Source: Xylanibacter ruminicola Ga6B6 (GTDB lineage: Bacteria > Bacteroidota > Bacteroidia > Bacteroidales > Bacteroidaceae). Taken from it: a stretch of 64,000 nt of DNA. The stretch covers positions 186,001 through 250,000 of the forward strand of contig NZ_JHXD01000003.1 of the NCBI RefSeq assembly GCF_000687715.1. Reading direction: 5' to 3'. The number at the start of each line of letters is the position of its first letter. The stretch's first letter is position 1. Below, one piece after another: positions 43,290 through 58,578 of the stretch. The position numbers and the translations under genes were made by a program. The notes below the pieces were generated by a model that was given only the letters and a program-made list of their open reading frames with translations, was not told the DNA's origin and did not search any database.

Positions 43290-44122
43290 CAACCTGGGAG
43301 ATTCTTTTCTGCCAGATCCAGCATGCCACCTTGTTGTATCATCATTCGTCGGCTTAACGACAAGCCGATACCGCTACCTGTGCGCTTGGTGGTAAAGAAA
43401 GGCACAAACAGCGACTGGCGGTTTTCGGCTGGGATAGGACTGCCATCGTTGCCGATAAGAATGGTCTTGGGGGATGGGGCCTGGGTGTTGGTGAGTTCGA
43501 TGATGATTTTGGTAGCCTCGGCCTCGATGGCGTTCTTGATAAGGTTCATCAATATCTGGCGCAGCATGCCCTTATCGGCTTTTAAGATGGTATCGGCAGG
43601 CACATCAATAGTCCATGCCAATTGCTGATAGGTTTTGCAGAGCTCGTCGAGCATAGGGCGCAGGGGCACTTCGGAAAGGACTGGCTTTTCGAGTTCCGAC
43701 ATCTTACGATAGTTGGTTACAAAATCGCTCAGATGGCGCGAGGTGTCGTAGATGGCTTTGATACCATCTTCGAGGAGTGTGCCCTTTACGTCGGGACGGC
43801 TCAGCAACGACTGACTGATGCTGGTGATAGGTGCAGTGGCGTTCATCATCTCGTGGGTAAGCACACGGGTTAATCGCTCCCACGATTCTACCTCGTTCTT
43901 GTTCATCTGTTGACGGATATTCTCGCCCAGCTCGTTGAGCGCCTCCTGCATGGCACGCTCGCCAGGTAACAGATTGTTGGTGGGCAGGCGGAACGAGAAA
44001 TCCTGATTACGAATGGCCTCCTTCATGATGTGGGCACGCAATCGCAACTTGTGCTGGTGGTGCACAATGGCTATCACCAACACTACCAGTACCACACCTA
44101 TTATAATGAAGAGCCAAGTCAT
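43259..44122 (-). CDS. Sensor histidine kinase with a single transmembrane helix
   Basis: A 287-residue kinase. One N-terminal transmembrane segment (residues 4-20) leaves almost nothing outside the membrane. A linker (21-80) leads to the HisKA domain with His90 in LTHEMMNATAPI, then HATPase_c with the N-box LMNLIKNAIEA and the G boxes (GNDGSPIP, TKRTGSGIGLSLS). No sensor domain is visible. It overlaps the response regulator gene in an ATGA, so the two are translationally coupled and form a pair. The gene converges on the helicase with a 31-bp overlap. Confidence 0.9.
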   Translation of the reverse strand: MTWLFIIIGVVLVVLVIAIVHHQHKLRLRAHIMKEAIRNQDFSFRLPTNNLLPGERAMQEALNELGENIRQQMNKNEVESWERLTRVLTHEMMNATAPITSISQSLLSRPDVKGTLLEDGIKAIYDTSRHLSDFVTNYRKMSELEKPVLSEVPLRPMLDELCKTYQQLAWTIDVPADTILKADKGMLRQILMNLIKNAIEAEATKIIIELTNTQAPSPKTILIGNDGSPIPAENRQSLFVPFFTTKRTGSGIGLSLSRRMMIQQGGMLDLAEKNLPGCHVTFVLSSI

Positions 44123-44643
44123 AAGCGTTTCATCTTGTTGTAAAGAGTCTGACGGGTGATACCCAACAATTGGGCGGCTTGAGTGAGATTACCATGACAG
44201 TGGTCGATGGTGCGACGGATATGCTCCTGTTCCACTTCGTCGAGACTAACGATTTCGTTCTGCATGTCGAGCACATCCTTCAGTTTGCGTAGCAGTTCGT
44301 CGTTATCCCAAGGCTTGGTGATAAAATCGGCGGCACCGTTCTTCAGTCCCTTTACCGCCAGGTTAATGTCGGCATAGGCTGTGAGCAGTACCACAGGTGT
44401 TTCGGGGTGCTGTTTGCGGATGGTGCGAAGCCAGAAAAGCCCCTCGTTACCATTGTTTACACCAAGGGTAAAGTTCATGTCGAGTACTACGATGTCGATG
44501 GTTTGCTGAGCCATCAGTTTCAGAATGTCATCGGGGTTGGTCGAGGTCAGCACCTGTTCGAAAGTGCCGTCAAGCAGATAACGCATAGCGGTAAGGATGG
44601 CCGCGTTATCATCAACGATTAATATGGTTCCGTACTTGTTCAT
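44119..44643 (-). CDS. Response regulator: receiver plus Fis-type HTH, no AAA+ domain
   Basis: A 174-residue regulator from the ATG at 44643; an in-frame ATG at 44694 lies upstream of the promoter. The receiver domain has acidic Asp11-Asp12, the phosphoacceptor Asp55 (VVLDMNF), the Thr in LLTAYAD and the Lys in ITKPWD. A short linker leads to a Fis-type helix-turn-helix (HIRRTIDHCHGNLTQAAQLL and GITRQTLYNKMKRL). NtrC-type relatives carry a sigma-54 ATPase domain between these parts; here it is absent, as in RegA/PrrA-type regulators. It is divergent from the TolC gene, and the cassettes in front of the ABC units are its likely targets. Confidence 0.9.
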   Translation of the reverse strand: MNKYGTILIVDDNAAILTAMRYLLDGTFEQVLTSTNPDDILKLMAQQTIDIVVLDMNFTLGVNNGNEGLFWLRTIRKQHPETPVVLLTAYADINLAVKGLKNGAADFITKPWDNDELLRKLKDVLDMQNEIVSLDEVEQEHIRRTIDHCHGNLTQAAQLLGITRQTLYNKMKRL

Positions 44644-44660
44644 AATGTAATTTTTGTGTG

Positions 44661-44668
44661 CAAAGATA
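44661..44668 (-). promoter_or_regulatory. -7 box of the regulator-kinase operon
   Basis: TATCTTTG on the minus strand, 17 bp before the regulator ATG. The -33 region of this promoter is covered by the first dyad of the cassette at 44677-44716, which suggests autoregulation. Confidence 0.6.
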
Positions 44669-44676
44669 CGAAGAAT

Positions 44677-44716
44677 TGTATAAAAGTCATACAAAAGGGT
44701 GTATAAATTTTAGACA
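44677..44716 (+). promoter_or_regulatory. Tandem dyad operator cassette 1 (before TolC)
   Basis: Two 17-bp dyads: TGTATAA-AAG-TCATACA (44677-44693) and TGTATAA-ATT-TTAGACA (44700-44716), separated by 6 bp. The second ends 49 bp before a TATCTTTG box at 44766. The same layout recurs at 52198, 52901 and 55401. Confidence 0.75.
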
Positions 44717-44741
44717 ATCAGCCTTTGGAGCCCTATTTTTG

Positions 44742-44773
44742 CTTGGCAGGTAATATTTATTACCCTATCTTTG
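44742..44773 (+). promoter_or_regulatory. Promoter of the TolC-HlyD-permease operon
   Basis: CTTG at 44742-44745 takes the place of TTTG, followed by a 20-bp spacer and TATCTTTG at 44766-44773. Same geometry as at 52263, 52966 and 55466. Confidence 0.7.
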
Positions 44774-44811
44774 CAATAAAAATTGCGACCAAAATTTAAA
44801 AATAACGCGAT

Positions 44812-46182
44812 ATGAAAAAGTCGATCATCCTCTGTATCTCAGTATCTCTGTGTTTGAATTCGGTTCAGGCGCAACAGATGACCATGCAGCAATGCATGCA
44901 GTATGCGGTGCAGCATAACCACGAGGTGAAACAGGCCGAGTTGGAACTCGACAACTATAAGGCATCGAAGACCGGTGCTATCGGTAAATTCCTGCCATCT
45001 GTGGATGGATACATCGGTGCCCAGTATAACTTTGGACGTGCCATCGACCCAGAGACCAACGGCTATACCGATGTGAGTACCTTTTATAATGGCTATCAAC
45101 TCTCGGCATCGTTGCCAGTATTCGACGGATTCAGTCGTCTGCATGCCCTCAAGGCCGCTAAGGCCAGCGAGATGATGGGACGCGCCAGTCTGCGCCAGCG
45201 TCAGGATCAGACGGCACTCGACGTACTGCAGGCCTATACCAGCGTGGCTTATTACGATGGATTAGTAAAGATGGCCGAGGAGAAAGTTGAAGAGACGTTG
45301 TTGTTGCTCAAGCAGGTAAAAGTGCTTGAAGAGGTGGGGCGAAAGAGTGCTGCTGATGTGGCTCAGGTGGAATCGCAACAGGCTGAGGCCGATTACGAAC
45401 TGACACGTCAGCAGAACCTTTATGCCTCGGCTATATTGGAACTGAAAAAGGCCATGAACTATCCCTTGGGTGATAGTCTGAGCCTGGAATATATTCCCAA
45501 CGTGGGAATGTTTGATTCCCAGTGTGGGAACAATTCATTCCCAACGTGGGAAATCGGCTCGCCGCTTGCTACCAACGGGACGCAAGAAAAAAATCTGGAT
45601 AACGAGCGCCATCCAGAACTTCAGGTGGCCCGCTATCGCATGCAGACATCGAAACATGAGTGGCATCAGGCTCGCGCTTCTCTTTACCCATCACTCTCTC
45701 TCAGTGCGGGTCTGAGCACCACTTATTACAAAACGCTACATAACGATGCTGCGGAGACATTCCGCAATCAGATGAAGAATAATATGGGTGAATACTTTGG
45801 CGTATCAGTCAACATCCCCCTGTTCAACCGTTTGCAAACCCTTACCAGCATCCGCAAGGCCAAGAACAACTACAAGATTGCCCAGGAGGCTTACGACCAG
45901 AAACAACTGGAACTGGCCAAACTGAGCAGCGAGGCTTGGCAGGACTGGCAGGGCTATCAGAAGCAGACCATACAGATGGAGAAGAAGGTTGAGGCCGATA
46001 GCATCGCCTATCAGCTTACCCGTCGACAGTTCGAAGAGGGCCTTGCAACAGCCATCGATCTGCACACCACATCGGCACAGCTACTCAACTCAAAAGCCAC
46101 CCTGCTGCAATGTCAGCTCATGGCTATGGTAAAGGAACAATTAGTAAGATATTATAAAGGAGAAACAATATGGACAGAGTAA
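44812..46182 (+). CDS. TolC-family outer-membrane efflux protein
   Basis: A 456-residue outer-membrane channel protein. A signal peptide (MKKSIILCISVSLCLNSVQA) is followed by two internal repeats of long coiled helices (QQCMQYAVQHNHEVKQAELELD and the second half from about residue 260). The region between them (residues 228-247) is encoded by three palindromic 17-bp repeats, which adds a variable loop. With HlyD and the ABC permeases it would form a trans-envelope export route. It overlaps the HlyD start by 13 bp and opens the first operon of the array. Confidence 0.9.
   Translation: MKKSIILCISVSLCLNSVQAQQMTMQQCMQYAVQHNHEVKQAELELDNYKASKTGAIGKFLPSVDGYIGAQYNFGRAIDPETNGYTDVSTFYNGYQLSASLPVFDGFSRLHALKAAKASEMMGRASLRQRQDQTALDVLQAYTSVAYYDGLVKMAEEKVEETLLLLKQVKVLEEVGRKSAADVAQVESQQAEADYELTRQQNLYASAILELKKAMNYPLGDSLSLEYIPNVGMFDSQCGNNSFPTWEIGSPLATNGTQEKNLDNERHPELQVARYRMQTSKHEWHQARASLYPSLSLSAGLSTTYYKTLHNDAAETFRNQMKNNMGEYFGVSVNIPLFNRLQTLTSIRKAKNNYKIAQEAYDQKQLELAKLSSEAWQDWQGYQKQTIQMEKKVEADSIAYQLTRRQFEEGLATAIDLHTTSAQLLNSKATLLQCQLMAMVKEQLVRYYKGETIWTE
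45493..45553. repeat. Three 17-bp palindromes, 22-bp period, inside the TolC gene
   Basis: ATTCCCAACGTGGGAAT (45493-45509), a variant with AGTGTGGGAAC (45515-45531) and ATTCCCAACGTGGGAAA (45537-45553). The period is exactly 22 bp, which is not a multiple of three, so the three copies are read in different frames. Confidence 0.8.
46156..46162 (+). promoter_or_regulatory. Shine-Dalgarno site for the HlyD gene
   Basis: AAAGGAG lies 7 nt before the ATG at 46170, inside the last codons of TolC, and supports the overlapping start. Confidence 0.6.
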
Positions 46183-47423
46183 TCGAAAAAACTAAGAGTC
46201 AGCAACTGAAGAAGTATTGGCCATACGCTGCAGGCGGTAGCTTGTTGTTAGTAATGCTGGTTTGGCTGATTTTTGGCAACCATGCCTCGACGCTCAAGGT
46301 GAGCAAGGACGAGATGACCATCAGCGAAGCACAGCGTGCCGAGTTCAAAGACTATGTACGTACCAACGGCCAGGTGCTGCCCATCCAGATAGTACAGATT
46401 TCGCCCGAAGAAGGTGGTATCGTGATGGAGAAGGTGGTTGAAGAAGGTACGATGGTGCACAAGGGCGATGTGATTGTTCGATTGAGCAACTCGAACCTCG
46501 ACCTGCAGATTCTGAATGCCGAGGCCGAACTGGCTGAGAAGCAGAACCTGCTGCGTAACACCCAGGTGGCTATGCAACAGGACCGTTTGAACAACCAGAC
46601 CGAACAGGCTCAGTTGGATATGGACACCCATCGCAAACAGCGTACCTACGATCAGAACAAGCGCTTGTATGCCGAAAAGCTGATTAGCAAGGAGGATTAC
46701 ATCAAGTCGCAGGAGGATTACCAGCTTTCTGCCAAGAAGCGCTCGCTCATTACCAAGCGCCTGAAGCAGGACTCTATCTATCGCACCGTTCAGATGGACC
46801 AGATGGAGGACAATCTGCAGAACATGCGTAAGAACGTGGTGCTGGTTCGCCAGCGTAAGGATAAGCTCGAGATACGTTCGGCTATCGATGGCGAACTGGG
46901 ACTGCTGGATGTGGAGTTAGGACAGAGCATTCAGCCTGGTCAGAAGATTGGTCAGTTGAACGACCTCTCGGATTACAAGGTGCAGGCCAGCATCGACGAG
47001 CATTATATCGACCGCGTTCGTCCAGGTCTTTCAGCTACCTTCACCCGTGGCGACAAGCAGTACCAGTTGCAGGTTCGCAAGGTATACCCCGAGGTGCGCG
47101 ATGGTAAGTTCCGTTGTGATTTCGTATTCAAAGGCGAGCGTCCTGAGAACATCCGCTCTGGTCAGACCTATTATATCGACCTGGAACTGGGTCAGCCCGA
47201 GCAGGCCATCATCATTCCTCGTGGCACCTTCTTCCAGACCACAGGAGGCCAGTGGATATTTGTGCTCGATAAGAGTGGCTCGAAGGCTTATCGTCGTAAC
47301 ATCCGTGTAGGTCGTCAGAACCCTCAGTACTACGAGATTCTCGAAGGTTTGGAGCCAGGCGAGCGCGTGGTTACCAGTGGTTACGAAGCATTCAAGGATA
47401 ACGAAGTGTTAGTGATTAAGTAA
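46170..47423 (+). CDS. HlyD/MacA-family periplasmic adaptor subunit
   Basis: A 417-residue inner-membrane-anchored adaptor that links ABC permeases to TolC. A cytosolic N-terminus and one transmembrane helix (residues 19-35) are followed by the split lipoyl/biotinyl-type domain (EEGTMVHKGDVIVRLSNSNL), a long coiled coil (about residues 100-235), and beta-barrel domains. The start overlaps TolC, and the stop is 6 bp before permease 1. Adaptors of this type work with MacB-like transporters. Confidence 0.92.
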   Translation: MDRVIEKTKSQQLKKYWPYAAGGSLLLVMLVWLIFGNHASTLKVSKDEMTISEAQRAEFKDYVRTNGQVLPIQIVQISPEEGGIVMEKVVEEGTMVHKGDVIVRLSNSNLDLQILNAEAELAEKQNLLRNTQVAMQQDRLNNQTEQAQLDMDTHRKQRTYDQNKRLYAEKLISKEDYIKSQEDYQLSAKKRSLITKRLKQDSIYRTVQMDQMEDNLQNMRKNVVLVRQRKDKLEIRSAIDGELGLLDVELGQSIQPGQKIGQLNDLSDYKVQASIDEHYIDRVRPGLSATFTRGDKQYQLQVRKVYPEVRDGKFRCDFVFKGERPENIRSGQTYYIDLELGQPEQAIIIPRGTFFQTTGGQWIFVLDKSGSKAYRRNIRVGRQNPQYYEILEGLEPGERVVTSGYEAFKDNEVLVIK

Positions 47424-47429
47424 AGCGTT

Positions 47430-49808
47430 ATGAAAAGCTATTTTAAGTTTCTTGGTCGCCATCGCCTGTTTACCATTATAAATATTGTGGGCCTGTGCCT
47501 GTCGATGGCCTTCCTGTTGCTGTTGGGCGATTTGATCTACCGTCAGACATCAGTAGAGAACTACCAGACCCGTGGCGAGCGTATCTTCGCATTGGGCAAT
47601 GAGGAGTTTACCATGTCGCACTTCCGCGTAGGTCAGAAGTTGCAGGACCGTTTCCCCGAAATAGAGGCGTGGTGTTCTGTCTCTGGTTATAATGCCATGT
47701 TTGATATCCGTGGCATGGAGGTGCAAACCGAGATTCTGGTGGTGGCACCTAACTTCTTTGAATTCTTCGATTACCAGTTGTTGACTGGCGACAAGCATAA
47801 AGTGCTCGAAGCCCCCAACCAGATGGTGGTGAGCAAGAAGTTTGCCGAACGCTATTGGCCCGAGGGCGATGCCGTTGGCAAGGAGGTTGTGCTGGGTGAT
47901 AAGAACGATCCCGACGGGCATGTTACCTATACCATCAGTGGCATCATGGACGATTTCGACCGCTCGGTTATCCCCAGCAGTCACGAGTGCGTGGTGAACC
48001 TCGAAAGTCATAAGCATTTTAACTATTCGGCTTATACCGAAGAGATGAACAATGCCGGTAGTAGCGTGCTGTTCCTGATGCAGCGCGAGGGTGCCGACCT
48101 GCGTAGCAAGGCCGATGCGATGCGCGAGTATATGAAGACCTTCTTCTGGCTCTATCGTATGGATGCAGTAAAGCAGGTTACGCTTACCCCGCTCTCTGCG
48201 CTCTACTACGATGCCAAGGAATGCTCATTCCAGTCGGGCGACCTGAACCACGGCAATCGCGATATGGCTCACCTCTATGTGGTGATAGCCCTGTTGGTGC
48301 TGGTGTTCGCTATTTTTAATTATGTCAACCTGAGTGTGTCGCTTACCACAGAGCGCTCGAAGGAGATGGCCACACGCCGATTGTTAGGTCTGTCGCGTTT
48401 GCAGGTATTCCTGAAGCTGATTGGCGAGAGCATCTTCTTTACAGCCATCGCTTTTGGTGTGGCTTATCTGGTAGCCCTTGCCCTGCAGGATAAGGCTATC
48501 GAGATGGCCGCCTGTCCGATGGATCTGTTGAAGGATACTGGCATCGTTACAATCATCGGCTTTGTGCTTATCATTGCTGTGGTAGGTGCGTTGGCAGGTT
48601 TTGTGCCCGCCTCGATACTCAGTGGCTATCAGCCTATCGATATCGTTCGTGGCACCTTCCGCCGTCGTGTTCGTCAGCGTTGGAGCCATGTGCTGATGGT
48701 GATTCAGACTGTGTTTGCCATCGTGATGCTCACTGTAACCTTGTTGCTCAGTAGCAATATCCGCGAAAAGATGCATCAGCCTCTGGGTTACGATTACGAG
48801 AATATTCTGGAAACCTGGGGACTTCATAACCTGAGTCTGACGCAGCGCCAGACCTATCGCCAGCAGCTGTTGCAACTGCCCGAGGTTGATGCTGTGGGAT
48901 TTGGTTATGGTACGCCGCTCGATTTCTTGGAGAACAACACCACCCAGGCCGACGACGGTACGGTGGTAAGTATGCGCTACCTGATGGGCGACAGCTGTTT
49001 CTTCAATATTCTGAACCTGCATCCTGAGAAGACTTATTCGGATAATGGAGTAGGTGTGAACTACCAGTTACTGCGCCAGTTTGGTAAGAGTGATGATACC
49101 CGAGAGATAGTGAACACCAAAGGCCATATGAATATGACTATTTCGGCTGTTTATCCCGATATTATCTATCAGACTGTGATGAACGAGGAGAAGCACCCCA
49201 CGCCCATCGTGATATTGAGAACCGATGAATATCTTAACGACACCACCAGTTTTGCTCAGCGACAATATGGCTCGCCCCGTATGGCAATCGTGAAATATCA
49301 TGGTAATCGCGAAAAGGTGGAGGGCCAGATGAAAGCCCTGTTCCAGGAATTCACGGGTCATGAAGCCCCCGAGGCCCATTCGCTTGAACAGAAACATCAG
49401 GAATGGTACGAGGATTACGAGCGATTCCTGAGTGTGCTCACCGTGTTTACGTTTGTAGCTTTGCTCATAGCTATCCTGGGACTGATGGCGATGAACAGTT
49501 ACTTCGTAGGTCAGCGTAGGCGTGAGATTGCTGTGCGCCGTGTGTTTGGTGCCGAAGTAAGCAGTATCACCCTGCACTTGTTGCGAACGGTGTTTGTACA
49601 GTCGTTGGTAGCCGCCATTATCGCTATCCCGTTGGCCTACTGGCTGGCACCTACGGCAGGCAGTATATCAGGTTTGCATGTAGAGATGCAGTTCACGCCT
49701 TTGGTACTCTCGCTGATCATCGTGCTGGTAGTAAATGTGCTTACTGCCGCCCTGCAGGGATGGCGCGCCGCAACCGAGAACCCTATCAACAACATTAAGA
49801 ACGAATAA
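47430..49808 (+). CDS. ABC transporter permease, MacB/FtsX type (array member 1)
   Basis: A 792-residue permease with two MacB-like halves: an N-terminal transmembrane segment (residues 13-33), a large periplasmic domain, three transmembrane helices ending near residue 410, a second helix at about 425-445, another periplasmic domain, and a C-terminal FtsX unit of three helices. It has no ATPase domain and must use a separate one. The protein ends NPINNIKNE, a signature shared by the other members. It begins MKSYFKFLGRHRLFT and shows similarity to, but not near-identity with, members 2 and 3. Confidence 0.9.
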   Translation: MKSYFKFLGRHRLFTIINIVGLCLSMAFLLLLGDLIYRQTSVENYQTRGERIFALGNEEFTMSHFRVGQKLQDRFPEIEAWCSVSGYNAMFDIRGMEVQTEILVVAPNFFEFFDYQLLTGDKHKVLEAPNQMVVSKKFAERYWPEGDAVGKEVVLGDKNDPDGHVTYTISGIMDDFDRSVIPSSHECVVNLESHKHFNYSAYTEEMNNAGSSVLFLMQREGADLRSKADAMREYMKTFFWLYRMDAVKQVTLTPLSALYYDAKECSFQSGDLNHGNRDMAHLYVVIALLVLVFAIFNYVNLSVSLTTERSKEMATRRLLGLSRLQVFLKLIGESIFFTAIAFGVAYLVALALQDKAIEMAACPMDLLKDTGIVTIIGFVLIIAVVGALAGFVPASILSGYQPIDIVRGTFRRRVRQRWSHVLMVIQTVFAIVMLTVTLLLSSNIREKMHQPLGYDYENILETWGLHNLSLTQRQTYRQQLLQLPEVDAVGFGYGTPLDFLENNTTQADDGTVVSMRYLMGDSCFFNILNLHPEKTYSDNGVGVNYQLLRQFGKSDDTREIVNTKGHMNMTISAVYPDIIYQTVMNEEKHPTPIVILRTDEYLNDTTSFAQRQYGSPRMAIVKYHGNREKVEGQMKALFQEFTGHEAPEAHSLEQKHQEWYEDYERFLSVLTVFTFVALLIAILGLMAMNSYFVGQRRREIAVRRVFGAEVSSITLHLLRTVFVQSLVAAIIAIPLAYWLAPTAGSISGLHVEMQFTPLVLSLIIVLVVNVLTAALQGWRAATENPINNIKNE

Positions 49809-49821
49809 ACCATAAAACCGT

Positions 49822-52188
49822 ATGAAAAGTTACTTTCGATTTCTATCACGCAACAAGCTCTACACATTAATCAATGTGGTAGGGCTTGTCGTGTCGTTAA
49901 TGTTTATCATCCTGCTGGGCGACTACACCTGGCGCCAGTACAGCATCGACTCGTGGCACAAGAATGCCGATCGTATCGTGCTGGTGGGCAGCGAGTCGTC
50001 ATTTGCCTTGTGGCCAGATGCTGCCGCTCAGATAAAAGATATGTGTCCTGAGATTGAGCAGAAATGCTGTGTAATGAGTTCAAAGTGTAAAATCAGATAT
50101 CATCAGCTGGAGGTAAAAGACGATGACAAGGGAAATGGTTCCGTCTTGCTGGTCGACTCGACATTCTTCCAGTTCTTCGATTTCGAGTTGGAGGCAGGCG
50201 ACCGTCGTACGGCTTTAGACGCCCCCAACAAATGTGTAATTACTGAACGCTTGGCCAAACGCCTCTTCGGCGATAAGGACCCTATAGGCGAGCCCTTGCA
50301 GATTATGGGCGATCGCGAAGTTGATCCAAGCAATACCATCTACGATAGCACCTTGGTGTATACCGTTAGTGCTGTTGCCAAGAATTTTGACTACACGGCA
50401 CTGCCTAATGAAACGCAGGTTATTGCCAGTGTAGAGCGCTATCCACAGATAGAGGGCTATAAGTTTGATAATTACGGGTTTGCTTTCAGCTCTTCAGGTG
50501 CTTGCAAGGGCTTTTTTATGCTTCGTCCAGGCATGACGCTCGACAGCAAGAAGAAAGCCATTAATGACCTTATTGTCAAGAATTTTCCTCCTATTTTTGA
50601 AGAATATAAGGTAAGCATCATACCTCTTAAAGATATGATGTTTGCGCCTCAGAACGATGGTAAGGGAGTGATGAAAGGCGACAAGACGCGACTTCGCATC
50701 ATGCTGGCTGCTGTGCTAGCCATCCTCTTCTTTGCCATCACCAACTATATTAATCTGACTGTAGCCAATACGGGATTTCGTTCCAAGGAGATGGCTACAC
50801 GACGGCTCTTCGGTAGCAGTCAGCGCACCATATCGCTGAAACTTATTGCAGAATCGACGCTGATGGTGGCCGTCTCTTTTACTATCGGACTGGCCTTGGC
50901 GCTCAGTTTTCAGCAAGATGCCGCCAACCTGTTCAAGGGGAAGATAGCATTGGTAGATGATATCAATATAGGTAGCATATGTATTTGTCTTGGTTTCATC
51001 CTGCTGGTAGGTTTCGTCTCGGGCATCCTACCCTCATGGCACATTTCCCGCTATCAGCCCATCGACATCGTGAAGGGTAATTTCCGTTTCCATTCTAAGA
51101 TGGTTTTAGGACGTCTGTTCATTATCTTGCAGAATGTCATCACTATCACAATGCTTACAGCCAGTCTTGTCATCTGGCTACAACTGAACCACCTCATTCA
51201 TGCGCCGTTAGGCTACAACACCAAGAACCTGTACTATGTGGGAACGCCAGAAGGTAAGAGCCAGACAGTCAGGAATAAGTTGGAGAAGATGCCCTTTGTG
51301 GAGCGCATTGGTGAGTATAGCGGAACGCCCTTTACTGACAGCGGCGGTGGCGTCATGGTGGGCGCCATGCACAACGGTAATTGGATAAGTATGTTCGTAA
51401 CTGCTATGGATTCGACTGCCTTCGATCTCTATGGACTGGAGATTCTCAAAGATTATGGTAATACCCGTGATGGCTACTATCTGAATGAGGAAGCCAAGCG
51501 TAAGTTTGGGTTGAGGGATGAGGACCGCGAGATACCCATGGGCATGGGTGAAAAGGCACCAGTTAACGGTATCCTCAAAGAATTCCATCACATAAACGTG
51601 CTCCGTGAAGCAGATCCTTTTGGCATTCAGTTGCAGGAACATATTGGAAATCCCTGTTACCTTGTTAGGACAAATGGCGATAAAAAGGCGAAGGCCGCTT
51701 TCTTCGACTTAATGAGAGAATTGGATGTTTCTGAGGAACAATTGGAATGGTATGTTTCTAGCATGGAGAAGGATGTAGCCAAGACCTTCGTTGAGCAGCA
51801 GAACACGTTGAAGATTATCACCATCTTCACCATCATTGCCATTATCATCTCTATCCTAGGCACCATCGGCATGTCGCTCTTCTTCATCCGTCAGCGACAG
51901 AAGGAAATCTCCATCCGTAAAGTGATGGGCTCTACATCGGGCGAAGTACTGATGTTAATGCTCCGTATCTTCTCAATACCATTGCTGATTGCGTTTGTCA
52001 TTGCCGTACCCCTCTCGTGGTATGTGATGACCGACTGGCTCAGCAATTTCAGTTATCGTATCACGCTCAGTGCCTGGATATTCGTAGCGGCTGGGTTTAC
52101 CTGCTTCATCATCTCGCTGCTTACCGTTGTTTTCCAGAGCTGGCGCGCTGCATCTGAGAACCCTGTGAACAATATCAAAACCGAATAA
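49822..52188 (+). CDS. ABC transporter permease, MacB/FtsX type (array member 2)
   Basis: A 788-residue permease with the same two-half layout as member 1 and the ending NPVNNIKTE. The first 45 residues are nearly identical to member 3 (MKSYFRFLSRNKLYTLINVV), and the nucleotide sequence over this stretch is also almost the same, pointing to a duplication or gene conversion. It follows member 1 after 13 bp and shares its operon. The transported substrate is unknown. Confidence 0.9.
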   Translation: MKSYFRFLSRNKLYTLINVVGLVVSLMFIILLGDYTWRQYSIDSWHKNADRIVLVGSESSFALWPDAAAQIKDMCPEIEQKCCVMSSKCKIRYHQLEVKDDDKGNGSVLLVDSTFFQFFDFELEAGDRRTALDAPNKCVITERLAKRLFGDKDPIGEPLQIMGDREVDPSNTIYDSTLVYTVSAVAKNFDYTALPNETQVIASVERYPQIEGYKFDNYGFAFSSSGACKGFFMLRPGMTLDSKKKAINDLIVKNFPPIFEEYKVSIIPLKDMMFAPQNDGKGVMKGDKTRLRIMLAAVLAILFFAITNYINLTVANTGFRSKEMATRRLFGSSQRTISLKLIAESTLMVAVSFTIGLALALSFQQDAANLFKGKIALVDDINIGSICICLGFILLVGFVSGILPSWHISRYQPIDIVKGNFRFHSKMVLGRLFIILQNVITITMLTASLVIWLQLNHLIHAPLGYNTKNLYYVGTPEGKSQTVRNKLEKMPFVERIGEYSGTPFTDSGGGVMVGAMHNGNWISMFVTAMDSTAFDLYGLEILKDYGNTRDGYYLNEEAKRKFGLRDEDREIPMGMGEKAPVNGILKEFHHINVLREADPFGIQLQEHIGNPCYLVRTNGDKKAKAAFFDLMRELDVSEEQLEWYVSSMEKDVAKTFVEQQNTLKIITIFTIIAIIISILGTIGMSLFFIRQRQKEISIRKVMGSTSGEVLMLMLRIFSIPLLIAFVIAVPLSWYVMTDWLSNFSYRITLSAWIFVAAGFTCFIISLLTVVFQSWRAASENPVNNIKTE

Positions 52189-52197
52189 TCAGGGTAG

Positions 52198-52237
52198 TGT
52201 AAATAAATCATACGATAGTGTGTATAAAGATTAGACG
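52198..52237 (+). promoter_or_regulatory. Tandem dyad operator cassette 2 (before the DUF3836-like gene)
   Basis: Dyads TGTAAAT-AAA-TCATACG (52198-52214) and TGTATAA-AGA-TTAGACG (52221-52237), 6 bp apart; 49 bp then lead to TAACTTTG at 52287. Confidence 0.75.
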
Positions 52238-52262
52238 AACGGCCTCCGGGCACTCCAAAAAG

Positions 52263-52294
52263 CTTGCATAGAACTTAGAATGATCGTAACTTTG
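52263..52294 (+). promoter_or_regulatory. Promoter of the DUF3836-like gene
   Basis: CTTG at 52263-52266, a 20-bp spacer and TAACTTTG at 52287-52294. CAAAAAGCTTGCA spans the CTTG, identical to the promoter at 55466. Confidence 0.7.
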
Positions 52295-52344
52295 CAATGT
52301 GAAAAGAAAAAAGCAAAGTATTAACAATTTAAATAAGTACGATT

Positions 52345-52899
52345 ATGAAAAAGTTTATGATTAGCTCGATGATGTGCCTGATGGCTCTGACCTCAAATGC
52401 ACAAGTGATGACATCTGCAACTGTGGATAAGATTTTCGACACAGTCTCTCAAGCTAACGACGCAGAGTTTGTTTACAATGCTGATCGTGATGCCGATGGT
52501 AAGATTGCTACGATGGTGGTATATCAGGAACAGCCCCAGCGCAAGGGTAACTTCACCCTGAAGCCCATCTACCGCTACCAGTACAACTATGCTGCCGATG
52601 GTAAGCTCACCAGTCGTACTAAGTTCGTATGGAACAAGAACCAGTGGCTGTGTGCGGGTCGCCACAACTACTTGTTGGATGGCGGATTGTATATCGCTAC
52701 CTATAGTCGCTGGAACAAGAAGAAGGCGCAGTTTGATGAGCCCGTAGGCCAAATCACCTATACTCTGCTGCCCGATGAGAGCATTGCCAGCGTGGCCTGT
52801 TACAGTCGTGAGCGTGGTCATGCCGACTTGCAACTGGAGTGGCAGGCACCTGTTGAAAAAGGTACCTTGTACACCGATCATTACCTTACTCTGAAATGA
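52345..52899 (+). CDS. Small exported protein, DUF3836-like
   Basis: A 184-residue secreted protein. A signal peptide (MKKFMISSMMCLMALTSNAQ) precedes a beta-rich body with repeated Tyr/Trp segments (YRYQYNYAADGKLTSRTKFV and IATYSRWNKKKAQFD). This pattern resembles the DUF3836 family of Prevotella and Bacteroides; I am not certain. It is a single-gene unit with its own cassette and terminator, inside the efflux array, so it may be a cargo, sensor or accessory of the transporter. Confidence 0.7.
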   Translation: MKKFMISSMMCLMALTSNAQVMTSATVDKIFDTVSQANDAEFVYNADRDADGKIATMVVYQEQPQRKGNFTLKPIYRYQYNYAADGKLTSRTKFVWNKNQWLCAGRHNYLLDGGLYIATYSRWNKKKAQFDEPVGQITYTLLPDESIASVACYSRERGHADLQLEWQAPVEKGTLYTDHYLTLK

Positions 52900-52900
52900 T

Positions 52901-52940
52901 TGTCAAGGAATCATACGCCGAGGTGTCTAATAATTAGACA
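52901..52940 (+). promoter_or_regulatory. Tandem dyad operator cassette 3 (before permease 3)
   Basis: Dyads TGTCAAG-GAA-TCATACG (52901-52917) and TGTCTAA-TAA-TTAGACA (52924-52940), 6 bp apart; the second is a perfect palindrome. 49 bp lead to TATTTTTG at 52990. Confidence 0.78.
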
Positions 52941-52943
52941 ATC

Positions 52944-52984
52944 CGCATCCGCCAGGGTGTAAAACCTTGGCGGATGCGTTTTTT
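52944..52984 (+). terminator. Terminator of the DUF3836-like gene, interleaved with the next promoter
   Basis: A 14-bp stem (52944-52957 with 52965-52978, one G-T wobble) around a 7-nt loop, followed by six T. Its right arm contains the CTTG element of the next promoter (52966-52969). Confidence 0.85.
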
Positions 52985-52997
52985 AGATGTATTTTTG
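52966..52997 (+). promoter_or_regulatory. Promoter of permease 3
   Basis: CTTG at 52966-52969, a 20-bp spacer and TATTTTTG at 52990-52997. The ATG at 52987 lies before the predicted transcription start, so the gene is taken from 53026. Confidence 0.7.
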
Positions 52998-53025
52998 CAT
53001 CAGAAATCATAAATTGAATAATGAT

Positions 53026-55389
53026 ATGAAGAGTTATTTCCGTTTTCTCTCACGCAACAAGCTCTACACATTAATCAATGTAGTAGGGCTTGTAGTGTCA
53101 CTCATGTTTATCATCCTGCTGGGCGACTACACCTGGCGCCAGTACAGTATTGACTCGTGGCATAAGCAGGCCGAACGAATCGTTCTGGTAGGTGATCAGA
53201 GCAATTTCTTTATGTGGCCGCAGGCTGCCGACGATATCAAGGCACGATGCCCTGAGGTGGGGCAGACGTGCGCCGTGATGAGCCAGAGTGGAAAGATAAA
53301 GTATGGCGAAAGGGTGATAGAAGATGGCGACGACAAGAGCAGTATCCTGTTGGTTGATTCTTCTTTCTTCAACATCTTCGACTATGAGTTGACACAGGGT
53401 AACAAGCGTTATGCGCTTGATAAACCCGATAAGTGCGTGATTACAGAGCGACTGGCCAAGCGCTTGTTTGGCGATAAGAACCCTATGGGTGAGTCGATTC
53501 AGATTACTGGCGAGCGCCATGTGACGATTGGAACCGAGGACCCTTACGACAGTACGTCGGTATATACCGTGAGTGCCGTGGCTAAGGACTTCGATCATAC
53601 CGTGCTGCCCAACGAAACACAGATTATCGTAAACATGGCACGCTATCCGCAGGTGATGGGCTACAAGCTCGAGAACTATACAATGGCCTACGGCCCCCAT
53701 GGTTGTAGTAAGGTGTTCTTGATGCTGCGCCCAGGTGCAAACCTCGACAGCAAGAAAGCTGTTATCGCTGATTACCTGGCCAAGAACTATTATGGTAAGT
53801 GGGAGGCGCAGAACCTGACCTTTACGCCACTCAAGGACATCATGTTTGCGCCACAGAACAATGGAGCGGGCATGCAGAAAGGCGACAAAACACGGCTCCA
53901 CATCTTGTTGGCTGCTGTGCTGGCCATCCTCTTCTTTGCCATCAGCAACTACATCAACCTGACGGTTGCCAACACAGGCTTCCGTGCCAAGGAGATGGCC
54001 ACCCGAAAACTCTTCGGTAGTAGTCAGAAGGATATCTCGTTGAAGTTGATTGCCGAATCAACCCTGATGGTGGCCGTATCGTTTGCCATCGGTCTGGCTT
54101 TAGCCTTTGCCTTGCAGGATGAGGCTATCGATTTGTTTAAGGGTAAGATCGACCTTGCTGGCGACATCAGTCTGGGCACCGTTAGTGTCAGCATCGCTTT
54201 CATCCTGTTGGTGGGTATCATCTCGGGCATCATGCCTTCGTGGCAGATCTCACGCTTCCAGCCTATCGACATCGTGAAGGGCAGTTTCCGTTTCCGTTCC
54301 AAGATGGTGCTGGGTAAGATCTTTATCATTCTGCAGAATGTAGTTACGGTAGTGATGCTTACCTCGGCGCTTGTTATCTGGTTGCAGTTGAATCATCTCA
54401 TTCATGCCCCGCTGGGCTACAACACCGAGAATATGTTTGTAATAAACGCGCTCGACGGTAAGGATCAGACGGTAAGAAACCTCCTGGAGAAGATGCCTTT
54501 TGTTGAGAAGATAGGTACATTCTCGCATACCTCGCTGGCAACTGGTAGCTGTAGCATGCGAAGCATTAAGCGCGATGGTAAAATGGTTACCATTATGCTA
54601 TTAGACCTTGATAAAACCGCCTACGATCTTTATGGATTTAAGAAAAAGAAAGACTATGGACCAACCAGCGACGGTTACTACTTGACGGAGGAAACCATGC
54701 GCCAGATGGAATATACCGACACTACCAGGACGATTGCCTGGGGTACAGAGAATAAGAATCCTATCGCAGGAGTTCTTTACGATATCCATCGTATCAACGT
54801 GCTGAAAGGTGTTGATCCGTTTGCCATCCGATTAACGGATACATTCGAATATCCTTCGTTCCTGGTGAAGACCAATGGCGACAAGCAGGCTAAGGCTGCC
54901 TTTATTGCCATGCAAAAGGAGCTGGGCATACCTGAGGCTGATATGGAGTGGTATGTGCAGCCGCTGGAGGAAAATATTGCCAAAACCTTCGAGGACCAGC
55001 AGAACACGCTGAAGATCATCTCGCTCTTTACCATTGTGGCTATCGTTATTTCGGTGATGGGCTTCATCGGTATGTCGCTCTTCTTTATCCGTCAGCGACA
55101 GAAGGAGATTGGTATCCGTAAGATTATGGGTTCAACCTCGCACGAGGTGATGACGCTCATGCTGCGCACCTTCTGTGCACCATTGCTGGTATCGTTTGTC
55201 ATCGCCATCCCGCTGTCGTGGTACGTGATGACCGACTGGTTGAGCAACTTCAGCTATCGCATCAGCCTGAGTCCTTGGATATTCGCTGTTACCTGTGCCT
55301 TTGCCCTGCTGGTAGCTGTGCTCTCGGTTAGCATCCAGATTATCAAAGCCGTGCGTACCAACCCGGTTGAGAGCATTAAAACCGAGTAA
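53026..55389 (+). CDS. ABC transporter permease, MacB/FtsX type (array member 3)
   Basis: A 787-residue permease with the same two-half structure and the ending NPVESIKTE. The start is 53026 (MKSYFRFLSRNKLYTLINVV), not the upstream in-frame ATG at 52987, which overlaps the promoter. Its N-terminus and much of its length closely match member 2. It is the only gene of its transcription unit and has no ATPase of its own, so it must share the one at 57904. Confidence 0.9.
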   Translation: MKSYFRFLSRNKLYTLINVVGLVVSLMFIILLGDYTWRQYSIDSWHKQAERIVLVGDQSNFFMWPQAADDIKARCPEVGQTCAVMSQSGKIKYGERVIEDGDDKSSILLVDSSFFNIFDYELTQGNKRYALDKPDKCVITERLAKRLFGDKNPMGESIQITGERHVTIGTEDPYDSTSVYTVSAVAKDFDHTVLPNETQIIVNMARYPQVMGYKLENYTMAYGPHGCSKVFLMLRPGANLDSKKAVIADYLAKNYYGKWEAQNLTFTPLKDIMFAPQNNGAGMQKGDKTRLHILLAAVLAILFFAISNYINLTVANTGFRAKEMATRKLFGSSQKDISLKLIAESTLMVAVSFAIGLALAFALQDEAIDLFKGKIDLAGDISLGTVSVSIAFILLVGIISGIMPSWQISRFQPIDIVKGSFRFRSKMVLGKIFIILQNVVTVVMLTSALVIWLQLNHLIHAPLGYNTENMFVINALDGKDQTVRNLLEKMPFVEKIGTFSHTSLATGSCSMRSIKRDGKMVTIMLLDLDKTAYDLYGFKKKKDYGPTSDGYYLTEETMRQMEYTDTTRTIAWGTENKNPIAGVLYDIHRINVLKGVDPFAIRLTDTFEYPSFLVKTNGDKQAKAAFIAMQKELGIPEADMEWYVQPLEENIAKTFEDQQNTLKIISLFTIVAIVISVMGFIGMSLFFIRQRQKEIGIRKIMGSTSHEVMTLMLRTFCAPLLVSFVIAIPLSWYVMTDWLSNFSYRISLSPWIFAVTCAFALLVAVLSVSIQIIKAVRTNPVESIKTE

Positions 55390-55400
55390 CTGGTGGCAAG

Positions 55401-55440
55401 TGTATAAAAATCATACAGTGAACCGTATAATGTTTAGACA
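55401..55440 (+). promoter_or_regulatory. Tandem dyad operator cassette 4 (before permease 4)
   Basis: Dyads TGTATAA-AAA-TCATACA (55401-55417) and CGTATAA-TGT-TTAGACA (55424-55440), 6 bp apart; 49 bp lead to TATCTTTG at 55490. Confidence 0.75.
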
Positions 55441-55465
55441 TACCGCCTACGGGCCGTGCAAAAAG

Positions 55466-55497
55466 CTTGCAGATATAGGTTAATAGCCGTATCTTTG
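55466..55497 (+). promoter_or_regulatory. Promoter of the permease 4-ATPase operon
   Basis: CTTG at 55466-55469, a 20-bp spacer and TATCTTTG at 55490-55497. The longer frame from 55456 begins upstream and is rejected. Confidence 0.7.
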
Positions 55498-55518: not shown

Positions 55519-57876
55519 ATGCATATGAACGTTATCAAATCTCTCAATCAGCGTGGTCAGCACAATTGGATCAAGATTCTCTGTCTGGCTGTTGGTCTGG
55601 CTACAGGTGTAGTATTGATAGGTAAGGCTGGTTTCGAACAGTCGTGGGATAAAGACTTCGACACGAGCGACCGCATCTATGTGCTCTATGAGGATATCAT
55701 CCGCGATGGTGAATACACGCATTATTCACAGACCTCGGGTGCTATCGCTCACGGCTTGAAGCGTTACTGCCCCCAGGTCGAGGCGGCTACCCGCTATACA
55801 GGCTTTGGTTGGGACCTGCCACTGGTTACCGAAGACGATAAGCGCATACGTACCAATTTCTTCTTTACCGATAGCTGTTTCTTCGATGTGTTTCCCTACC
55901 GTATTCTGGCAGGTAATCCTAAGAAAACGCTCAGTCAGCCCAACTACTGCATGATTCCGCAGTCGATAGCCGAGAAACTGGGTGGCGACGTGATTGGTAA
56001 GAAGGTGTATTATAATAAGCGTGGCAATCTGGCACTCACTATTGGCGGTATCTACGAGGATATCCCGCTGAACAGCCGTCTGCACGACTTGGAGGTGCTG
56101 GTATCGATGTCCACACTGCCCCAGATAACCTGGGACGGTCGCGACAACTGGGTGGGTAACGACCGCTACTTCGGCTATGTGCGATTGGCCAAAGGCATCA
56201 CCCCCGACGACCTGAAACCGCAGATAAAGAAGATGCGCCATGATAACCTGCCTGCCGACGAACTGAAGAAGGCCGGTGTGGATCTCGATTACTCGCTGCG
56301 CCCGTTGGCCGACTATCATACACAGGACGATGCTACACGTCGCATGATATGGATTATCTCGTTGCTGGCCATAGTGCTGATTGGCTGTGCGGTGATGAAC
56401 TATCTGTTGCTGGTGGTTGGTGGCATCGGTCGCCGAGCCCGCGAGATGGCTGTACACCGTTGCTATGGTGCCGAGGCACGTAACATCTACGGTCGCGTAA
56501 TGATCGAGAGTGTGCTGCACCTGCTGTTATCGCTGGCACTGGCCGCAGGCTTGCTGTTCATCTTCCAGGATACCATTCAGGATCTTACGGGCACGCCACT
56601 ACCGGTCATCCTTACTACAGGTCATAACATCTGGTTCATCGCCCTTACTTGTTTGGTGGTGCTGGTTATCACTGGTCTGGTGCCCGGTTGGGCTTACACC
56701 CACATCCCCATGACTGCTGCCTTTAAGCATTACAACCATTCGCACCGTGCGTGGAAAATGCTGTTGTTGGGTTTGCAGTTTGCTTCGGCCACCTTCCTCT
56801 TCGTATTACTGCTGGTGGTAGGTCGCCAGTATCAGCTGATGGTGAACGATAATCCAGGTTACGACTATTCGACCCTGGCCGATCTCAATACCGACGAGCT
56901 CTCGTTGACACAGAAACGACTGGTGGTTAGTGAGCTCAAAAAGCTGTCGGGTGTGAAAGGTGTTACCACATCTTATGCCTACCTGCCCGAGATGCAGAGT
57001 GGCGATAACATCTTCCTGCCAGGCGATGACAAGGAATACATGAATGTGGCCGACCTGTTTGATGTGGGCGACGATTACTTCGAGGTGATGGGTATCCCCG
57101 TGATTGCCGGTCGTACCTTTACGCAGCAGACCGACACCATGCGCGAGGCGATGGTAAGTCGTAAGTTCGAGGAGAAGATGAAACAGCTGGCTGGTTGGGA
57201 TCAGGCTGTAGGCAAGCAGGTCATCTGCACATCATATAATGGTCCTTACACCATCGTGGGTGTGTTCGACGATCCCCGCATCGGTAGTATCACCTATCCC
57301 GATACCCGTCCAAGCATCTGTTTCTACGACCAGCATATGAGGTACACCCACCATATCACCGTGCGTTTCCACGATATGGATGCACTCGATGCCGCTAACA
57401 AGCGCTTGCACGAGTTGATTCCCGAGAATCCCGATATAACCATGCGCCCCTATACCATGCTGATGACGCAGCTTTATACCGACGCCCACCGCTTCCGCAG
57501 TACTGTGATGATTGGTGGCTTGGTAGCACTCATCATCGCCCTGATCGGACTGATTGGTTATCTGGCAGGTGAGTTGGCTCGCCGACAGAAGGAGATTGCC
57601 GTGCGCAAGGTGAACGGTGCCCATATCATCGATGTGCTGCAGCTCTTTATCCGCGACATTCTGCGCCTGGCTTTGCCTGCAGTGGTTATCGGTGCCATCG
57701 GCGGCTGGTATGTATCGCGCTTGTGGTTAGAGCAGTTCAGCGAGAAGGCTGTTCTGCCGCCAGTACTCTTCGGCCTTTGCGCCCTGGCGGTAGTGGTGGT
57801 TATCCTCTCGGTGGTTTGCATCGGCTGTTATCGTGTGGCCAGCAGCAATCCAGTTGATTATCTTAAGAACGAATAA
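55519..57876 (+). CDS. ABC transporter permease, MacB/FtsX type (array member 4)
   Basis: A 785-residue permease with the same domain plan and the ending NPVDYLKNE, but a clearly different N-terminus (MHMNVIKSLNQRGQHNWIKI) and only moderate similarity to members 1-3. The start is 55519, or 55525 two codons later. It precedes the ATP-binding gene by 27 bp, so this permease and the ATPase are co-expressed. Confidence 0.9.
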   Translation: MHMNVIKSLNQRGQHNWIKILCLAVGLATGVVLIGKAGFEQSWDKDFDTSDRIYVLYEDIIRDGEYTHYSQTSGAIAHGLKRYCPQVEAATRYTGFGWDLPLVTEDDKRIRTNFFFTDSCFFDVFPYRILAGNPKKTLSQPNYCMIPQSIAEKLGGDVIGKKVYYNKRGNLALTIGGIYEDIPLNSRLHDLEVLVSMSTLPQITWDGRDNWVGNDRYFGYVRLAKGITPDDLKPQIKKMRHDNLPADELKKAGVDLDYSLRPLADYHTQDDATRRMIWIISLLAIVLIGCAVMNYLLLVVGGIGRRAREMAVHRCYGAEARNIYGRVMIESVLHLLLSLALAAGLLFIFQDTIQDLTGTPLPVILTTGHNIWFIALTCLVVLVITGLVPGWAYTHIPMTAAFKHYNHSHRAWKMLLLGLQFASATFLFVLLLVVGRQYQLMVNDNPGYDYSTLADLNTDELSLTQKRLVVSELKKLSGVKGVTTSYAYLPEMQSGDNIFLPGDDKEYMNVADLFDVGDDYFEVMGIPVIAGRTFTQQTDTMREAMVSRKFEEKMKQLAGWDQAVGKQVICTSYNGPYTIVGVFDDPRIGSITYPDTRPSICFYDQHMRYTHHITVRFHDMDALDAANKRLHELIPENPDITMRPYTMLMTQLYTDAHRFRSTVMIGGLVALIIALIGLIGYLAGELARRQKEIAVRKVNGAHIIDVLQLFIRDILRLALPAVVIGAIGGWYVSRLWLEQFSEKAVLPPVLFGLCALAVVVVILSVVCIGCYRVASSNPVDYLKNE

Positions 57877-57903
57877 ATAGTAAATCTTTAAATAATAAAA
57901 CTT

Positions 57904-58578
57904 ATGATTAAGTTAGAAAACATTCAGAAGGTGTTCCGTACCGAAGAGGTGGAGACCGTTGCATTGGGCGGTGTATCGCTCGAAGTAAAGAAAGGCGAGT
58001 TCGTGGCCATCATGGGTCCATCGGGCTGTGGTAAATCAACCTTACTTAACATTCTGGGTTTGCTCGATAATCCTACCAGCGGTCAGTATCTGCTGGATGG
58101 TCAGGATGTGGGCTCGCTCAAGGAGAGCCAGCGTACCAAGGTTCGCAAGGGCCAGATTGGTTTTGTGTTCCAGAGCTTTAACCTGATTGATGAATTGAAT
58201 GTTGAAGAGAATGTAGAGTTGCCTCTTACTTATCTGGGTGTGCCCAAGAAGGAGCGCAAGGCAAGGGTCGAGGAGGTACTGCGCCGCATGGCCATCAGTC
58301 ATCGTTCCCACCACTTCCCACAGCAGCTTTCTGGAGGTCAGCAGCAGCGTGTGGCCATCGCCCGTGCCGTAGTGATGAATCCTAAGATTATCCTTGCCGA
58401 CGAGCCCACTGGTAACCTCGACTCAAAGAACGGTTTGGAGGTGATGCAGCTTCTTACCCAGCTCAACCAGGAGGGTACCACCGTGGTAATGGTAACCCAC
58501 TCGGAGCGCGATGCCGGTTATGCCCAGCGCACCATCAACCTGCTCGACGGTCAGGTAGTACCCGAGGTTACGCTGTAA
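57904..58578 (+). CDS. ABC transporter ATP-binding protein (LolD/MacB type)
   Basis: A 224-residue ATPase. Walker A GPSGCGKST is at residues 38-46, the Q-loop in FVFQSFNLID, the signature LSGGQQQR near residue 143, and Walker B IILADEP before the D-loop. This is the class that pairs with MacB/FtsX-type permeases. It is the only ATPase gene in the array and may serve all four permeases. An intrinsic terminator follows. Confidence 0.94.
   Translation: MIKLENIQKVFRTEEVETVALGGVSLEVKKGEFVAIMGPSGCGKSTLLNILGLLDNPTSGQYLLDGQDVGSLKESQRTKVRKGQIGFVFQSFNLIDELNVEENVELPLTYLGVPKKERKARVEEVLRRMAISHRSHHFPQQLSGGQQQRVAIARAVVMNPKIILADEPTGNLDSKNGLEVMQLLTQLNQEGTTVVMVTHSERDAGYAQRTINLLDGQVVPEVTL

Follow-up and report, generated by a model that had tools for sequence, protein, structure and literature searches.

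Tandem-Dyad Promoter Cassettes of an Export Array in Xylanibacter ruminicola and the Probable Change of Their Regulon from Sigma-54 to Sigma-A

The window, i.e., the whole stretch of 64,000 nucleotides that was analysed, belongs to the 3.47-Mb genome of Xylanibacter ruminicola Ga6B6 (RefSeq assembly GCF_000687715.1, contig NZ_JHXD01000003.1, positions 186,001 to 250,000 of the forward strand), and it contains four promoter cassettes in front of the four units of a TolC/HlyD/FtsX/ABC array, each cassette being made of two tandem dyads and a promoter at a fixed distance behind them. From the comparison of sequences it is proposed, with good confidence, that the cassettes serve a two-component regulon as its operators and promoters, and that a sigma-54 activator of the NtrC type lost its AAA+ motor there while the target promoters changed class alongside. 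A wider reading is held with somewhat less confidence but is still favoured, namely that the whole regulon changed its sigma class: an NtrC-type activator, probably after duplication, would have lost the AAA+ domain once, the sigma-54 promoters would have been rebuilt into sigma-A promoters, and the dyads would have moved about 20 bp closer, their mutual spacing going from 21–22 to 23 bp. Some genomes would have kept both systems, and an enhancer-binding protein would thus have become a class I activator similar to Fis.

The Regulator and the Four Cassettes

The cassettes are very probably read by the response regulator that is encoded next to the array (44119–44643, minus strand). It is composed of a receiver (PF00072), in which the phospho-acceptor D55 is kept, and a helix-turn-helix (HTH) domain of the Fis type (HTH_8, PF02954, E 4.4e-16), and no match to the AAA+ sigma-54 interaction domain (PF00158) was found in it with Pfam. 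It corresponds to the receiver and Fis-type HTH of the NtrC-type regulator encoded near the orthologous transporter array in relatives, and is thus an NtrC-type enhancer-binding protein minus the AAA+ domain. D55 is invariant in 35/35 short regulators of this kind and in 37/37 long ones, and the signalling residues of the receiver are likewise invariant in all 35 short regulators.

In the 100 genomes searched, the regulator matches not only short proteins; most of its other matches are to long frames of about 450 aa. The long ortholog in locus L048, for example, consists of a receiver, the sigma-54 activation domain PF00158 (E 7.6e-68), an AAA+ lid and HTH_8 according to Pfam, and its gene adjoins kinase, TolC, HlyD and FtsX genes. 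Among 398 genomes of the genus, the short regulator is present in 102 (E ≤ 1e-50, open frames of 126–276 aa) and a full-length ortholog in 62 (E ≤ 1e-90); 34 genomes have full-length matches of at least 56% identity, and 10 of these 34 also possess the short regulator. When 81 sequences were placed in a tree from their receiver and HTH columns (FastTree as the one method, 173 columns, midpoint root), the 35 short regulators formed a single clade with support 1.0, whose neighbours are the 37 long orthologs, those of other families included, and 9 other NtrC-type proteins fell outside. The simplest reading of this tree is that the AAA+ domain was lost once.

The four cassettes lie on the plus strand. 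In cassette 1, the tandem dyads (44677–44716) occupy 44677–44693 and 44700–44716, and the sigma-A promoter (44742–44773) consists of CTTG at 44742–44745 and the box TATCTTTG at 44766–44773; the TolC-HlyD-FtsX1-FtsX2 genes stand behind it. Cassette 2, in front of a DUF3836 gene, has its dyads at 52198–52237 (starts 52198 and 52221) and its promoter at 52263–52294 (CTTG 52263–52266, TAACTTTG 52287–52294). The dyads of cassette 3 are found at 52901–52940 (starts 52901 and 52924), followed by the promoter at 52966–52997 (CTTG 52966–52969, TATTTTTG 52990–52997) and the FtsX3 gene, and cassette 4, before FtsX4 and an ABC ATPase gene, combines dyads at 55401–55440 (starts 55401 and 55424) with a promoter at 55466–55497 (CTTG 55466–55469, TATCTTTG 55490–55497). 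The layout described in the first-pass annotation was exact in its coordinates and spacings, with dyads of 17 bp, 6 bp between them, a gap of 49 bp in 4/4 cassettes and CTTG 20 bp ahead of the TAnnTTTG box, again in 4/4. This box, present in all four window cassettes, is the −7 box of the Bacteroidetes housekeeping (sigma-ABfr) promoter, whose consensus is given as TAnnTTTG in the accessible part of PMC7366714.

Promoter Class in Loci with Short and Long Regulators

In favour of the proposed conversion, promoter class and regulator type go together. Tandem dyad pairs whose score exceeded a threshold were sorted according to the element behind them, in 98 loci with only the short regulator and 45 loci with only the long one; the dyad and sigma-54 scores are simple self-made weights. 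In the long class, the dyads are offset by 21–22 bp and then usually followed by 53–56 bp up to the −24 box; in the short class, the offset is 23 bp, followed by 49 bp up to the −7 box. The short-only loci gave 119 unique pairs at offset 23, of which 115 have TAnnTTTG at 48–50 bp on at least one side, and 13 more pairs at other offsets, of which 4 have the box at 48–50 bp. A sigma-54 score of at least 11 within 75 bp occurs in 1/135 short cassettes. The long-only loci gave 20 unique pairs at offset 21–22 and none at offset 23; a sigma-54 box scoring at least 12 accompanies 18 of the 20, and one of these 18 also has TAnnTTTG on the other side.

The full-length ortholog search supplied 30 long-regulator loci. 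A dyad pair was found in 14 of them, and in all 14 it is accompanied by a sigma-54 −24/−12 box, e.g., TGGCACGGnnTTGGCA, and precedes a TolC homolog. The distance from the dyads to the box is 54–56 bp in 13 of these loci and 43 bp in L187, where a second candidate stands at 54. Since the best sigma-54 score per 130 bp of shuffled sequence reaches 12.2 at the 99th percentile and 13.2 at the maximum, single boxes near 12 are no proof; 13 of the 14 boxes score 13.2–14.2 and do so at almost one distance. The same layout, at 53 bp, is seen before FtsX-type genes in L045, L049 and L050, which are long-regulator loci from other families; their boxes are weaker (12.2, 12.7 and 11.2).

Both systems can be compared directly in L039, where a single 20-kb stretch contains a TolC unit of the long regulator with 21 bp and a sigma-54 box, and an FtsX unit of the short regulator with 23 bp and a sigma-A promoter with CTTG. 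In L193–L196, the short regulator is divergent from a sigma-A cassette, behind which follow an ATPase gene, an FtsX gene and the gene of a long regulator, with the long regulator's kinase gene as well in 2/4. Such an arrangement, with the cassette of the short regulator ahead of the gene for a full-length one, could point to a hierarchy or to a duplication.

It was also considered whether CTTG[GC] might be the relic of a −24 box remaining in place. This was rejected, as CTTG lies 25 bp behind the dyads and the −24 boxes lie at 53–56 bp (best at 43 in L187).

Specificity and Recurrence of the Cassette

The core pattern TCATACR-N6-YGTNTAA-N3-TTAGACR was searched with up to 3 mismatches, and the same pattern read backwards served as control. 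In the whole genome of the organism it occurs at the four array sites only (two of them also on the reverse strand), and the backwards control gave 1 match. At up to 2 mismatches, the core is matched in 108 of the 398 genus genomes (own included), a count in which some two-mismatch matches are due to chance, the backwards control also matching occasionally. Among the matches listed, 52 genomes have a perfect core match, of which 48 possess the short regulator, and the remaining 4 are genomes of 66–76% completeness.

The survey of cassettes in relatives covered the window and the best 80 of 345 named loci; because these were chosen around the regulator, the exclusivity of the cassette rests on the whole-genome searches. 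Many of the relatives are known from incomplete metagenome assemblies, and their genomes, being related, do not count as independent cases. At least one dyad pair is present in 81/81 loci, and the offset is 23 bp in 132/142 dyad pairs, versus 0/9 pairs in a control with reversed sequence. The first TAnnTTTG follows at exactly 49 bp in 120/135 cassette readings (a number in which 3 symmetric pairs are counted twice), at 48 or 50 bp in 3, and elsewhere or not at all in 12. Downstream of the 120 exact cassettes, an array gene was recognised in 116 and none in 4; the genes are 69 TolC, 14 DUF3836, 12 FtsX4, 9 FtsX3, 5 FtsX2, 4 HlyD, 2 FtsX1 and 1 ATPase. The sequence-based conditions under which the first-pass annotation would have been refuted did not apply: the pattern is confined to the array in its own genome and stands before orthologous units in relatives. 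The view that the cassettes form one local regulon of the array is supported.

At the −33 position, CTTG is preferred without being invariant: it was found in 78/110 unique cassettes and nTTG in 92/110, compared with 17/253 for CTTG and 35/253 for TTTG at the other TAnnTTTGCA boxes of the same loci. The deviant −33 element had already been noticed in the window, and it fits a promoter that needs help. Two other elements are nearly as conserved as the −33 element in the 110 unique cassettes, i.e., the AAA two bases ahead of CTTG and an ATCnGCnTC-like block right behind the proximal dyad (44717–44731, 52238–52252, 52941–52955 and 55441–55455 in the window).

Once the spacing rule had been stated, 393 genomes of the order (own included) were searched. 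This yielded short regulators, 57–67% identical, in three genomes outside the family, by which a restriction of the short regulator to the genus is ruled out. In 3/3 of these genomes, the dyads are at 23 bp, TAnnTTTG is at 49 bp and CTTG is 20 bp before the box. Beside the regulator stand TolC-HlyD-FtsX genes in two of them and, in the stretch fetched from the third, an ATPase gene.

Proposed Mechanism and Rival Explanations

If transcription is assumed to start about 12 bp downstream of where TAnnTTTG begins, the centres of the dyads come to lie near −70 and −93, which are usual positions for class I activation, as known for CRP. The earlier doubt about the distance, which was considered large for a classic class I activator, is not supported, as these positions are ordinary ones and the sites of Fis at rrnB P1 are comparable. 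In the consulted portion of PMC2885671, the centres of the Fis sites at rrnB P1 are given as −71, −102 and −143, and Fis is said to be able to activate via the C-terminal domain (CTD) of the alpha subunit; the consulted portion of PMC4784862 adds that, during activation by Fis, its Arg71 switches over to the alpha CTD. The HTH of the regulator is homologous to that of Fis, and its position 150 aligns with Arg71. At this position, 34 of the 35 short regulators have H and 1 has R, and the 37 long regulators have E (16), D (9), G (6), N (3), C (1) and 2 others. A site near −70 and the residue at the position of Arg71 are compatible with a contact to the alpha CTD.

According to the mechanism proposed here, the phosphorylated short regulator would bind both dyads as dimers, and the bound pair of dimers would recruit the sigma-A RNA polymerase through the alpha CTD, as Fis can do. 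This recruitment would compensate for the non-consensus −33 element, and the genes of a MacAB/TolC-like export array would as a result be expressed together, probably in response to envelope or antimicrobial-peptide stress. The regulator gene is likely to be autoregulated, perhaps negatively, because the upstream dyad covers the −33 region of its own divergent promoter, whose −7 box (TATCTTTG) is located at 44659–44666 on the minus strand and ends 15 bp ahead of the start codon of the regulator. In the surveyed loci, a TAnnTTTG on the divergent strand stands 8–9 bp from the upstream dyad in 61/129 divergent readings.

Several observations weigh against the proposed conversion. Two short pairs also score sigma-54-like on the side opposite to the sigma-A box, namely cassette 3 of the window (12.7) and the one in L087 (12.2), both at chance level. 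No dyad pair was found in the 1.5-kb flanks of 16/30 long-regulator loci, and the L193–L196 stretches yielded no sigma-54 cassette in the neighbourhood of the long regulators. Several of the long loci are closely related, so that 14 loci are not 14 independent cases, and the likeness of paralogous cassettes within one array may partly reflect recent duplication. Some loci with short regulators have dyads with other half-sites (TGTATGA, TGTAAAA), i.e., the recognition sequence drifts. In addition, substitutions of Arg71 other than by Lys strongly reduce the curvature of DNA, as reported in the accessible text of PMC4784862, and position 150 is His. Loss of sigma-54 as the cause of the switch is ruled out, since rpoN is still present in the genome itself; it was found in 93/100 genomes searched (own included).

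Three other explanations of the cassettes were weighed. It is unlikely that the regulator, once bound to the dyads, represses or silences constitutive sigma-A promoters, with a layout that serves the cooperativity of tandem dimers and not a contact with polymerase. The −7 boxes do fit the consensus, and in the regulator's own promoter the same dyads overlie the −33 region, from where binding would repress; at the array promoters, however, centres near −70 and −93 leave both −33 and −7 free, and repression from upstream would not need the 49 bp that are kept to the base in 120/135 readings. The frequent non-consensus CTTG (78/110 unique cassettes versus 17/253 other boxes) also speaks against this reading, and the corresponding sites in relatives with a long regulator are laid out like the enhancer sites of an activator. 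Rather less probable again is a reading in which the dyads are recognised by some other transcription factor and the regulator encoded nearby has no part in it; the simplicity of the half-site could be adduced in its favour. The presence of the site nevertheless tracks the regulator (48/52 genomes among the matches listed), geometry and promoter class track the type of the regulator even within the 20-kb stretch of L039, and dyads of 17 bp suit an HTH of the NtrC/Fis type.

The existence of like dyads at the sigma-54 promoters of long-regulator relatives could further suggest that the dyads are functionless remnants of ancestral sigma-54 enhancers before ordinary constitutive promoters. This is very improbable, as 110 unique cassettes repeat the dyads with the 23/49 spacings, as the same arrangement is met with different half-sites and in another family, and as a spacing of 23 instead of the 21–22 of the sigma-54 form would mean that it was changed and then fixed. 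Activation by the short regulator from a rebuilt sigma-A promoter is the preferred explanation of the cassettes.

Transcription Units, Kinase and Further Observations

Among named loci, those of the Prevotella (Xylanibacter) ruminicola group are nearest. With X. ruminicola D31d, the regulator shares 99% identity, and the DNA of the array region can be aligned piecewise to the D31d record at 76–97% identity. All units of the array are on the plus strand. Unit 1 (44812–52188) encodes TolC (44812–46182), an HlyD/RND adaptor (46170–47423) and two FtsX/MacB permeases, FtsX1 (47430–49808) and FtsX2 (49822–52188), as assigned with Pfam and NCBIfam. The second unit, behind cassette 2, is the DUF3836 gene (52345–52899, Pfam), and the third is the FtsX/MacB-type permease FtsX3 (53026–55389, sequence and NCBIfam), with 787 aa from the likely ATG at 53026. 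Unit 4 (55525–58578, Pfam and sequence) contains FtsX4, from a likely ATG at 55525 to 57876, and the ABC ATPase (57904–58578). The mechanical starts of the open reading frames of FtsX3 (52987) and FtsX4 (55456) fall within the promoter region, and the ATGs at 53026 and 55525 are the likely true ones. In NCBIfam, the adaptor, the ATPase and, weakly, the permease relate to darobactin-export and MacAB-type exporters, every Dar model staying below its cut-off.

Between the dyads and the −7 box of cassette 3 there is a terminator-like hairpin (52944–52984, plus strand) with a 15-bp stem and T6, whose 3′ arm holds the CTTG; the 52 nt behind the dyads fold at −30.9 kcal/mol, and the hairpin recurs in the FtsX-type cassettes of relatives. 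It looks like the intrinsic terminator of the preceding gene, and a single DNA stretch seems to have two roles, ending the transcription of that gene and providing the −33 region. In the FtsX-type cassettes, the ATCnGCnTC block is partly the 5′ arm of this hairpin; the block also occurs without a hairpin.

The sensor histidine kinase (43259–44122, minus strand) has HATPase_c in Pfam and one N-terminal hydrophobic stretch, and no PAS match at E ≤ 0.05 was found in it with Pfam. PAS was matched in the kinases of three long-regulator loci, in one of them under the cut-off of Pfam, and compared with these the window kinase seems to have been shortened. A strict coupling of PAS loss in the kinase to AAA+ loss in the regulator was rejected, as the long-regulator loci L050, L199 and L201 also have kinases of about 270–300 aa, judged by length.

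With regard to the long regulators, the 11 that were translated (L039 and L041–L050) have GAFTDA (10) or GAFTHA (1) and not GAFTGA as their sigma-54 contact loop; several of them are nonetheless near good sigma-54 boxes. Short regulators outside the clade of the window regulator have TGTATGA or TGTAAAA half-sites (L039 15734–15773, L193 9249–9288 and L208 7845–7884), and where a long regulator co-occurs, as in L039 with TGTCTAA/TGTCCAA for the long one, such a difference in half-site could insulate the two systems.

Relation to Known Systems and Significance

Compared with NtrC-type sigma-54 enhancer regulons, the system shares the receiver, the Fis-type HTH, the tandem upstream dyads of 17 bp and the kind of transporter genes; it differs in having neither an AAA+ domain nor a −24/−12 box; its dyads are spaced by 23 and not 21–22 bp, and a sigma-A −33/−7 promoter follows them at a fixed distance of 49 bp. 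A receiver with a Fis-type HTH and without AAA+ is also the architecture of ActR/PrrA/RegA. The 184-aa response regulator 3rqi, which we take to be a member of that family, matches residues 7–172 of the window regulator. However, the latter reaches 75.6 bits against a cut-off of 250 for NCBIfam NF033791, and the short clade groups with Bacteroidales NtrC-type regulators in a tree that contained no RegA sequence.

In the accessible part of PMC10274813, NtrC of Rhodobacter capsulatus and of Caulobacter and VspR of Vibrio cholerae are described as acting on sigma-70 promoters and as lacking the GAFTGA loop. They are similar to the present case as NtrC-family proteins working on housekeeping promoters after loss of the sigma-54 contact, but on that account they keep the AAA+ domain, whereas here the whole domain is gone and the target promoters can be compared in both states. 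Fis at rrnB P1 has a homologous HTH, a site at −71 and, at activated promoters, the alpha-CTD contact (PMC2885671 and PMC4784862, in the parts consulted); it differs in being no response regulator and in its sites at −71, −102 and −143, and the alpha-CTD contact of the window regulator is a proposed one. According to the accessible text, a 2025 computational study predicted that COG0577 FtsX-like permeases are under sigma-54 control, with Bacteroidia among the groups enriched, and called this the first evidence (PMC12316311); the prediction agrees with the ancestral state presumed here. As to Porphyromonas HaeR, the available part of PMC3764172 does not mention NtrC and holds no useful information on domains or motifs. 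In titles and abstract openings, with few subscription papers covered, no description was recognised of AAA+-less NtrC-type regulators in Bacteroidetes, of sigma-class switching, of this array, or of AAA+ loss coupled to promoter rebuilding.

Activation at sigma-54 and at sigma-70 promoters differs in mechanism, the former proceeding by ATP-driven remodelling and the latter by recruitment. With related regulators and corresponding promoters available in both states, sometimes in one genome, the crossing of a regulon from one class to the other becomes directly testable, including which changes of spacing it requires, whether polymerase can be recruited by the HTH on its own, and whether one exchange within the HTH is of help. 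A transporter array that is widespread in rumen Prevotella thereby gains a precisely defined operator and promoter, and the cassettes also suggest why searches for sigma-54 promoters would overlook these FtsX arrays.

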